64,000 bases of DNA, from assembly GCA_947472995.1 (NCBI GenBank), contig CANJBO010000005.1, positions 1 to 64,000 of the forward strand. Reading direction: 5' to 3'. The notes beneath the pieces are model-generated. The model made no database searches, was not told the origin of the DNA, and worked only from the letters and a program-made list of their open reading frames with translations. Positions 15,686 to 50,520 of this stretch are shown here, in pieces (positions within the stretch are counted from its first letter, which is position 1; every line of letters starts with the position of its first letter). The translations under genes and the position numbers were made by a program. Source of the stretch: Chloroflexota bacterium (GTDB lineage Bacteria; Chloroflexota; Dehalococcoidia; UBA2979).

Positions 15686-15770
15686 CCCTCACCCTGCCCT
15701 CTCCCCGAACGGGGAGAGGGTTCTGACGTCTCTGACTCCCTCCCCCTTCACGGGGAGGGCTGAGGTGGGG
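15686..15770. repeat. Dispersed two-hairpin palindromic repeat
   Basis: CCCTCACCCTGCCCTCTCCCCGAACGGGGAGAGGGTTCTGACG...CTCCCTCCCCCTTCACGGGGAGGGCTGAGGTGGGG. Confidence 0.8.
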
Positions 15771-15831
15771 ACTCCCTCGACGTGCGGAGCGTTCGAAGGT
15801 GCAGCGTCGTGCCTCGACGACGCGAGCGGGC

Positions 15832-20135: not shown

Positions 20136-22982
20136 ATGGCCGCCGACCTGTGGCGTCTCCGTGCCGTGCTGGAACGCGAGCTCGAGGCTGGCGCGACGGA
20201 CGAGCTCGTCCAGGGCGGCCTCGACGCCATGCTCGCGCGCGAGGCGGACGGCGAGCCCGAGGGCGCGCCGCTGCGCCGCATGCTCGCCGCGCTCCCGATC
20301 GCCGGCTACGTCGCGATGGACGTCGAGGAGCGCGTGACGTGGCTGCGCCGCGCGATCGCGACGATCCGCCGCGAGACGACGCTCGCCGACCAGCTGGAGC
20401 CGCCGCCGCCCGCGATCGGCCCGGTGCCCACGCGCCCGGCGAGCAAGACGCGCGCCTCGAAGGCCGCGAAAGCACCGAGGCCGCGCGCGCCTCGTGCGGC
20501 CGGCGCCGAGGGCGACGGCGCGAGCGCGGCGACCGCCGGGATGACGCCCATGCAACGTGCCGTGCATCGAGCGCCCCCCGGTGCGGCGGCGCTCGACGTG
20601 CCGATCGAGCATGCCGGGACGGGGCTGCGCGGTGCGACGTTCGCGCGGCTGGAGCACCTCGGCATCCGCACCGTGGGCGATGCGCTGCGCTTCTACCCGT
20701 ACCGCCACCACGACTTCACGCGCACGGTGCCGATCAGCGCGCTGAAAGTCGGCGTGGAGCAGACCGTCCGAGGCACGATCGACCGCGCGCGCGAGGTGCG
20801 CATGGGCCGCGGCGGCAAGATGCGCGCGACGGAGGCGGTGCTGACCGACGACCTCGGCGCGAGGATCACGGCGACGTGGTTCAACCAGCCGTACATCGCG
20901 CGCGCGCTGCCGGTCGGCTCGCTCGTCGCGTTCGCCGGGAAGGTGACGGCGTATCGCGGCCACCTCGCGTTTCAGAACCCCGAGTACGAGCGCCTCGACG
21001 GGCCGAACGCGGGAGCGCACACGGGGCGCTTCGTTCCGGTGTATTCGCTGACGCAGGGCCTGCCGCAGCGCACGCTCCGCTCGATGATCGCGGCGCTCCT
21101 CGAGGCGTTCGGCGACCGCATCGCGGACCCCGTGCCCGCGGACATCCGCGTGCGCAACGGCCTGATGGGACTCGTCGAGGCGACACGGCAAATCCACTAC
21201 CCCGACAGCGACGAGCAGCTGCAGGAGGCGCGCCGTCGCCTCGCGTTCGACGAGCTGCTCGCGATCCAGATCGGCGTGGTGTCGAGGAAGCGCGAGTGGC
21301 AGGCGCATGGCAACGCGCCGATCGTCATCGACCACGCGGCGGCGGACGCGTTCCTCGATACGCTGCCGTTCACGTTGACGCGCGCGCAGGGGCAGGCGCT
21401 GCACGACATCCGCTTGGACATCGCGCGCAACGTGCCGATGTCGCGGCTCCTCGAAGGCGACGTGGGCTCCGGCAAGACCGTCGTCGCGCTCGCCGCGATG
21501 CTGTCGATGATCTCCGCCGGCTACCAGGCGGTGATGATGGCCCCGACCGAGGTCCTCGCGGAGCAGCACTACCGAACGCTCTGTCGGATGCTCTCCGGCG
21601 AGAGCGAGCCGCCGCTACACGGGATGGTGAATGTCCCCGGCCTGCCGCTGCCCGTGCGCATCGTGCTGCTCACCGGCTCGACGAGGGCGAAGGAGCGGCG
21701 CGCGGCGCTGGAGGCGCTGAAGTTCGGCGGCGCGCAGCTCGCCGTCGGCACGCACGCGCTGATCCAGGAGGGCGTCGAATACGCGCGCCTCGGCCTCGCC
21801 GTCGTGGACGAGCAGCACCGCTTCGGCGTGATGCAGCGCGGCGCCCTGCGCCGCAAGGGCCTCGAGGGCGGGAGTAGCGTCGAGGAGAGCCCCCCCACCC
21901 CGACCCTCCCCCGCGAGGGCGTCGGGGGTGAGATCGGAGCGGGAGAGACAGCGCCTCTCTTCCCTCCCCCTCTCTCCGCTTCTGTCCCCTCCGCTTCTGT
22001 CCCCTCCGCTTCTGTCCCCTCCGCTTCTGTCCCCTCCGCTTCTGTCCCCTCCGCTTCTGTCCCCTCCCCCCTCGCGGGGGAGGGTGAGGGTGGGGGCTCC
22101 GGTCCCGGTTCCGCCCCCGCCTCCCGCGCGATCTCCCCTCACCTGCTGGTGATGAGCGCCACGCCGATCCCGCGCTCGCTCGCGCTGACGGCGTACGGCG
22201 ACCTCGACCTCACGATCATCGACGAGCTGCCGCCGGGGCGGACGCCGATCGTGACGAAGTGGCTGTCGCCGATCCAGCGGCGCGAGGCCTTCGCGACGAT
22301 GCGCGCGGAGATCGAGGCGGGCCGGCAGGCGTTCGTGATCTGCCCGCTCGTCGAGGGCTCCGACACCGTGGAGTCACGCGCGGCGACCGAGGAGTTCGAG
22401 CGCCTGAAGACGGAGGAGTTCCCCGACCTGGGCGAGCGCGGGCGCATCATCATGCTCCACGGCCGCATGGGCGCGCGTCAGAAGGACGAGGTGATGCGCG
22501 CGTTCGCGAACCACGAGGCGGACATCCTGGTGTCGACGGCGGTCGTCGAGGTGGGCATCGACGTGCCGAACGCGACGGTGATGGCGATCGAGGGCGCGGA
22601 CCGCTTCGGCCTCGCGCAGCTGCACCAGTTCCGCGGGCGGGTCGGCCGCGGCGAGCATGCCTCGACGTGCTTCCTGCTCGCCGACGACCCCACCCCCGAC
22701 GCCGAGGAGCGCCTGTCCGTCATGGAGCGCACGCTCGACGGCTTCGAGCTGGCCGAGGCCGACCTGCAGCTCCGAGGCCCCGGCGACCTGTTCGGCACCA
22801 CGCAGTCCGGCGTCGCGTCACTCCGCGTCGCCAGCCTCCTCGACGCCCCGCTCATCGCCGCCGCCCGACGCGAAGCCGAGACGCTCCTCGACGCCGACCC
22901 CGACCTCGTGCGCCTCGACCACCAGCCGCTGAAAGCGGCGATCGCTAGCCGCACGGCGAGCGTCGTGGCGGAGATGCATTAG
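20136..22982 (+). CDS. recG: ATP-dependent DNA helicase RecG with an in-frame repeat insertion
   Basis: LLEGDVGSGKTVVALAAML, MAPTEVLAEQHY, VVDEQHRFGVMQR, VMSATPIPRSLALTAYGDL, FRGRVGRG; about 89 aa extra between DEQH and SAT motifs. Confidence 0.96.
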   Translation: MAADLWRLRAVLERELEAGATDELVQGGLDAMLAREADGEPEGAPLRRMLAALPIAGYVAMDVEERVTWLRRAIATIRRETTLADQLEPPPPAIGPVPTRPASKTRASKAAKAPRPRAPRAAGAEGDGASAATAGMTPMQRAVHRAPPGAAALDVPIEHAGTGLRGATFARLEHLGIRTVGDALRFYPYRHHDFTRTVPISALKVGVEQTVRGTIDRAREVRMGRGGKMRATEAVLTDDLGARITATWFNQPYIARALPVGSLVAFAGKVTAYRGHLAFQNPEYERLDGPNAGAHTGRFVPVYSLTQGLPQRTLRSMIAALLEAFGDRIADPVPADIRVRNGLMGLVEATRQIHYPDSDEQLQEARRRLAFDELLAIQIGVVSRKREWQAHGNAPIVIDHAAADAFLDTLPFTLTRAQGQALHDIRLDIARNVPMSRLLEGDVGSGKTVVALAAMLSMISAGYQAVMMAPTEVLAEQHYRTLCRMLSGESEPPLHGMVNVPGLPLPVRIVLLTGSTRAKERRAALEALKFGGAQLAVGTHALIQEGVEYARLGLAVVDEQHRFGVMQRGALRRKGLEGGSSVEESPPTPTLPREGVGGEIGAGETAPLFPPPLSASVPSASVPSASVPSASVPSASVPSASVPSPLAGEGEGGGSGPGSAPASRAISPHLLVMSATPIPRSLALTAYGDLDLTIIDELPPGRTPIVTKWLSPIQRREAFATMRAEIEAGRQAFVICPLVEGSDTVESRAATEEFERLKTEEFPDLGERGRIIMLHGRMGARQKDEVMRAFANHEADILVSTAVVEVGIDVPNATVMAIEGADRFGLAQLHQFRGRVGRGEHASTCFLLADDPTPDAEERLSVMERTLDGFELAEADLQLRGPGDLFGTTQSGVASLRVASLLDAPLIAAARREAETLLDADPDLVRLDHQPLKAAIASRTASVVAEMH
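21893..22095. repeat. Inverted-repeat-bounded cassette within recG
   Basis: Left CCCCACCCCGACCCTCCCCCGCGAGGG (21893-21919) is nearly the reverse complement of right CCCTCGCGGGGGAGGGTGAGGGTGGGG (about 22068-22095). Confidence 0.9.
21975..22064 (+). repeat. Six exact tandem copies of TCCGCTTCTGTCCCC (encoding SASVP)
   Basis: Direct reading of 21975-22064. Confidence 0.97.
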
Positions 22983-26790: not shown

Positions 26791-26850
26791 GCCCTCTCCG
26801 CACTCCGGCCCCCTCTCCCCTTGCGGGAGAGGGCTGGGGGAGGGGTTCCC
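26791..26850. repeat. Dispersed palindromic repeat (single-hairpin form)
   Basis: GGCCCCCTCTCCCCTTGCGGGAGAGGGCTGGGGGAGGGG. Confidence 0.7.
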
Positions 26851-40590: not shown

Positions 40591-40635
40591 CGGCCCCCTC
40601 CCCCTCGACGGGGGAGGGCTGGGGTGGGGGTGGGC
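40591..40635. repeat. Dispersed palindromic repeat (single-hairpin form)
   Basis: CGGCCCCCTCCCCCTCGACGGGGGAGGGCTGGGGTGGGGG. Confidence 0.7.
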
Positions 40636-50407: not shown

Positions 50408-50520
50408 GGCCCTCACCCCAGCCCTCTCCCACCAGTGGGAGAGGGTTCTGAAGTTCACGAGACAAGTTCTGAACTTCTGGCCCCCTCTCCCATTCCTGGG
50501 AGAGGGCTGGGGTGAGGGCC
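50408..50520. repeat. Dispersed two-hairpin palindromic repeat (best-preserved copy)
   Basis: Outer arms GGCCCTCACCCCAGCCCTCTCCCA ... TGGGAGAGGGCTGGGGTGAGGGCC are perfect inverted copies. Confidence 0.9.

Follow-up and report, generated by a model that had tools for sequence, protein, structure and literature searches.

The recG gene in the 64,000-nt stretch of DNA analysed here (the window) raises the question of how a helicase gene came to carry a palindromic, tandemly repeated segment in its coding frame, and whether the protein tolerates it. The window lies in a MAG (G000; 1.78 Mb, 55 contigs, 73% complete) whose nearest named relatives were MAGs carrying the label Dehalococcoidia or Chloroflexi; several of these came from lakes, which suggests a freshwater origin of the bacterium. 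We compared it within a genus set of six genomes (G000, G012, G013, G014, G015 and G016) and a wider family set of 44 genomes, all of them MAGs and several incomplete. The recG open reading frame (positions 20136 to 22982, plus strand) was a single uninterrupted frame encoding 948 amino acids, in agreement with an earlier note on this DNA, which had suggested an insertion without frame breakage. Pfam domains (PF17191, PF00270, PF00271 and PF19833, corresponding to wedge, DEAD, Helicase_C and RecG_dom3_C) and alignment to the solved RecG structures 1gm5 and 9wm0 identified the product as RecG, and its helicase motifs were intact. About 80 to 90 extra residues, rich in proline, serine and glycine, were located between motif II (DEQHRFGVMQR) and motif III (LLVMSATPIP). 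We consider it highly probable that a REP/REPIN-like mobile palindrome inserted in frame into recG and is tolerated as a disordered loop, and that a 15-nt inner segment of it then expanded.

Alignment with the empty orthologs of G015 and G016 placed the inserted segment at approximately 21885 to 22128 (plus strand), slightly narrower than the 21865 to 22131 of the earlier note. The segment contains a left palindromic unit (21892 to 21927, plus strand) with its tail outward, reading SPPTPTLPREG; six perfect tandem copies of TCCGCTTCTGTCCCC (21975 to 22064, plus strand), reading SASVP six times; and a right palindromic unit in inverted orientation (22061 to 22096, minus strand), reading PSPLAGEGEGGG on the plus strand. 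The near-perfect inverted ends and six exact copies that had been described from the letters alone were both confirmed: 25 of 27 bases at the inverted ends (21893 to 21919 and 22069 to 22095) matched when counted after reverse-complementing, and TRF reported 6.3 copies of 15 bp with a 100% match (21974 to 22067). The single-strand fold of the insert beat 200 of 200 shuffles (z = -3.0). Canonical G-quadruplex motifs (e.g., GGGGGAGGGTGAGGGTGGGGG) were present on both insert strands, at 22076 to 22096 (plus) and, on the strand opposite the left unit, around 21890 to 21912; one of them falls in the recG sense strand.

The ends of the insert proved to belong to a family of dispersed, mostly intergenic palindromes, as had been proposed from their likeness to intergenic repeats in the window. 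The half-sites of the insert matched about 25 dispersed places in G000 (E down to 1.7e-15), and the right end of the insert showed 94% identity over 50 nt to a dispersed unit elsewhere in that genome. In four congeneric MAGs, 119 distinct units were read, mostly in intergenic positions. The profile of 118 units defined a 36-nt unit with sharp boundaries, composed of CCCCCACCCCAACCCTCCCCC, a 5-nt loop and GGGGGAGGGG; the consensus starts with CCCCCACCCC and finishes with GGGGGAGGGGG. An 81-nt query gave 41 matches in G013, 25 in G014, 24 in G000, 10 in G015 and none in G012 or G016, and a second query gave one weak match in G016. Some units stood alone and others formed dimers. Among 23 close pairs, 12 were inverted with tails outward, and the spacers of such dimers were mostly 10 to 85 nt. 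The copies in the window other than that of RecG lay outside called genes, typically just past a gene end and often between convergent genes. These were intergenic dimers at 1745 to 1828 (same superfamily, CTCTCCC subtype) and 15692 to 15771, single units at 26799 to 26846 (just downstream of an argS-like ORF) and 40595 to 40630 (minus strand), and a tail-out dimer between convergent genes at 50410 to 50518. The stem was paired in 94.9% of cells, but covariation only equalled that of composition-matched shuffles, so the hairpin is not proven to be a selected structure.

Some copies in G013 (L168, L181 and L185) stood head to tail and were duplicated along with flanking non-element sequence, which suggests that they arose by tandem duplication in place and not by new insertion. 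In a distant phylum, Azospirillum replicons (NZ_CP022366.1 and others) gave matches of 42 to 50 nt to the unit at about 86 to 88%; these are probably convergent GC-rich palindromes. Plasmid carriage of the element was rejected, as these replicon matches were the only ones found and no vector was among them.

We measured the linker between motifs II and III in about 100 RecG homologues. It was 9 aa in most of them, compared to 99 aa in G000 by the same measure, and ranged from 9 to 29 aa in the remainder of the family. In Acidobacteriota (Sulfotelmatobacter and relatives; L072, L073, L074 and L114), the same measure gave linkers of 35 to 43 aa with unrelated sequence. Isolate Yes70-31, an unrelated bacterium, had a 15-bp array of its own in this loop of RecG (L071:3525-3669), 4.9 copies of GAGACTTGTCTCGTT, a small palindrome unrelated to the G000 unit. 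Within the genus, the linkers were 21 aa (G016), 23 aa (G015), 54 aa (G012), 84 aa (G014), 99 aa (G000) and 101 aa (G013). Only those of G000, G014 and G013 contained palindromes, with alignable flanks, and the site was empty at the same position in G015 and G016, confirming a clean insertion relative to close relatives.

A tree of RecG, PheT and MidA grouped G014 and G015 as sisters (100% bootstrap) with G000 next to the pair, and recG codons alone paired G014 with G015 again. Since G014 carries the insert and its sister G015 is empty, the insert was most simply gained and then lost. The RecG spacers of G000 and G014 aligned end to end, with a score of 53 versus a shuffle maximum of 24. This homology along the spacer makes a single insertion before the lineages split, followed by loss in G015, the simplest history, although transfer between the G000 and G014 lineages may be an alternative. 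The insert in G013 looks independent, as its spacer resembles other G013 copies by inspection. The right unit of this G013 insert (L164) was seemingly interrupted at its loop by a small palindrome, CCCGGCCGGGTATCCCGGCC, with the frame kept. An assembly or binning artefact is suggested by the nature of G000, a 73% complete MAG in 55 contigs, and by the position of some element copies at contig ends. It is nevertheless very improbable: G014, which was binned separately, has a homologous yet different insert at this site, and G013 has an apparently independent one.

Could ordinary low-complexity drift of the linker, through slippage in a GC-rich gene, have produced the segment without a mobile element? 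The length of the RecG loop varies widely, and the 54-aa linker of G012 arose partly by local duplication and is free of palindromes. However, the right end of the insert is 94% identical over 50 nt to a dispersed unit, both ends match many such units, and congeners with zero or one weak copy genome-wide have RecG free of palindromes. Slippage drift is thus refuted for the palindromic ends and probably does account for the growth of the 15-nt array and for the G012 linker; as an explanation of the whole insert we give it hardly any weight. The motif II to III loop is a permissive, repeat-prone hotspot across lineages, in which palindromes were gained at least twice and other bacteria carry unrelated repeats, so the earlier view that RecG normally has only a short linker here is true of most RecG proteins and not of all, some linkers being longer.

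Reverse-complementing the 15-nt unit of the array, TCCGCTTCTGTCCCC, gives GGGGACAGAAGCGGA, the sequence found next to the inner palindrome edge in other copies of the element, e.g., on contig C8 of G000. There were six perfect copies in the G000 RecG (a count of perfect repeats that is open to miscount in short-read assembly), about two in the G014 RecG and 3.5 degenerate copies in the G014 MidA. No further tandem pair of the unit (two copies within three mismatches) was found in the 44 family genomes. The identity of the unit with the inner flank of the element, the fewer copies in G014 and the lack of any other tandem pair indicate that the array is a recent outgrowth of the element itself, lengthened in steps of five codons. 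Because 15 nt equals five codons, the frame holds; the earlier expectation that copy-number change would be neutral to the frame was borne out between the homologous inserts (about two copies versus six), and between these species the array behaves as a coding minisatellite (VNTR).

Other genes also carried the cassette in frame, as a search of further ORFs revealed. A coding-potential scan, with confirmation against orthologs, gave a gene-wide tally that is a minimum. A MidA-family methyltransferase (PF02636) of G014 contained a 57-aa in-frame dimer insert, and G000 MidA had a shortened insert at the same site, which was empty in G012, G013, G015 and G016. PheT of G013 contained two in-frame inserts that were absent from the four other species in which the gene was found. 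The inserts in MidA (G014 and G000) and PheT (G013) encode the same peptides as the RecG insert. An additional in-frame unit (KSPPTPTLPRGGG) was located in the N-terminal linker of G013 RecG, roughly at the position of the other disordered segment of the window's RecG (residues 88 to 126). About five of six insertion events used the frames SPPTPTLPREG and PSPLAGEGEG, a pattern that is suggestive only. In a MidA-family gene of G013 (G013:C14:8655-9257), the match contained one TAG.

In the AlphaFold model, RecG residues 580 to 659, which comprise the insert and its flanks, had pLDDT below 50 and no secondary structure, whereas the helix (567 to 577) and strand (669 to 674) beside the loop were intact and the helicase core was well predicted. 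Modelling the loop, as had been proposed, thus returned a disordered segment on an intact core, and the insert apparently gives the protein a floppy loop and does not break it. The dN/dS of recG was 0.08 between G014 and G015 and 0.15 between G000 and G015, and the gene is under purifying selection. Predicted disorder with an intact core, together with purifying selection, favours a tolerated and probably neutral loop. The insert could instead be selected, with the disordered Pro/Ser loop modulating RecG through partner binding or fork targeting and the array serving as a tuning or contingency repeat. Its placement in a loop of the helicase core, the frame kept through array changes and the unrelated 15-nt arrays that another bacterium carries in this loop of its RecG are in keeping with such a role. 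However, the insert is missing in the sister G015 and in G016, where the rest of RecG is under the same purifying selection; the same peptides occur in the unrelated MidA and PheT; and the sequence tracks the DNA element rather than the protein, in a loop predicted to be disordered. We therefore regard selection for the insert as improbable.

A tolerated mobile palindrome suggests the following sequence of events. The 36-nt unit, often as two units arranged tails-out around a short spacer, would enter recG at the loop between the helix that follows motif II and the strand of motif III. The units are nearly pure C and then G and hence almost stop-free in every frame (each frame is open in 86 to 117 of the 118 copies). 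Provided that its length suits the frame, an insertion would then simply be translated, giving a tolerated Pro/Gly/Ser-rich disordered loop. The 15-nt segment at the inner edge of one unit would then expand in tandem from about two to six copies, probably by slippage beside the hairpin. The element itself presumably spread by transposition.

We searched for the machinery involved. Y1_Tnp (the RAYT family) was absent from all six genus genomes and from all element-rich family genomes, with MAG incompleteness as a caveat; family RAYT genes were found only in G003, G020, G032 and G033, all of which lack element copies. RAYT was rejected as the mobiliser, being anti-correlated with the element across G000, the genus and the family. 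A longer autonomous element between two outward copies 1.3 kb apart on contig C6 of G000 was also rejected, as the interval contains tsaD and no transposase. Target-site duplications were not detected above control in 12 dimers, no GTAG/CGTC tag was found at the unit ends or in the adjacent flanks (118-unit consensus), and no autonomous transposon matching the element was found. A palindrome family that spreads without RAYT by undescribed machinery and repeatedly enters coding genes, including DNA-repair and translation genes, mostly in the same frames, is conceivable, though we hold the idea only tentatively and rather doubt it.

Comparison with known systems pointed to several precedents. 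Rickettsia palindromic elements (RPE-1 and others; Ogata et al. 2000, 2002) as summarised in two papers (PMC10969869, PMC3733652), lie in frame in protein genes and are about 150 bp long (PMC10969869). Like the Chloroflexota element, they are described there as dispersed palindromes in frame in unrelated protein genes, with the extra peptide tolerated, and the same element was indeed in frame in RecG, MidA and PheT. The Chloroflexota element differs from RPEs in its GC-rich 36-nt unit, present singly or as a dimer of about 70 to 205 bp, and in the growth of its internal 15-nt array. The likeness to RPEs drawn in the earlier note therefore stands for behaviour, the two being set side by side by description, and extends no further. 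Intragenic REPs of the GTAG/CGTC superfamilies (Di Nocera et al. 2013), for which PMC3733652 emphasises DNA repair and tRNA synthetase genes, are likewise palindromes of 20 to 40 bp. They occur singly or as inverted dimers, for the most part close to the 3' ends of genes and in some cases within genes, and the RecG and PheT hosts fit that list of genes. However, the Chloroflexota unit ends lack the tag, and recG is unmentioned in the main text of that paper. In REPINs (Bertels and Rainey 2011), a short spacer separates two inverted palindromes that can together fold into one hairpin, and the doublets appear as the moving unit (PMC3116915); the inverted dimers with a short spacer share this architecture. 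REPINs accompany RAYT transposases (PMC3116915), whereas the element-rich Chloroflexota genomes lack RAYT. Bacterial MITEs are also short and non-autonomous, with terminal inverted repeats and an ability to fuse with ORFs (PMC10969869), but the Chloroflexota element lacks target-site duplications and a matching autonomous transposon. RPEs are the precedent in function and intragenic REPs the closest one in structure, and REPINs match in dimer architecture. Because it lacks both the GTAG/CGTC tag and RAYT, we did not file the element as a member of the REP or REPIN/RAYT systems.

Our search turned up no open-access paper that links recG with palindromic repeats and Chloroflexi. Palindromic DNA is known to colonise proteins in frame in Rickettsia and in the case of tagged REPs, but the open-access papers searched contained no such report for this lineage or for RecG. 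The element is a real REP/REPIN-like family that enters proteins and, as far as the searched literature shows, a new one. The genus is a natural experiment: among its closely related species, sites of the same element are full, half-deleted or empty in orthologous genes, one of them the essential-type pheT. This makes it directly testable how proteins tolerate selfish DNA and how a coding minisatellite arises from the edge of an element.
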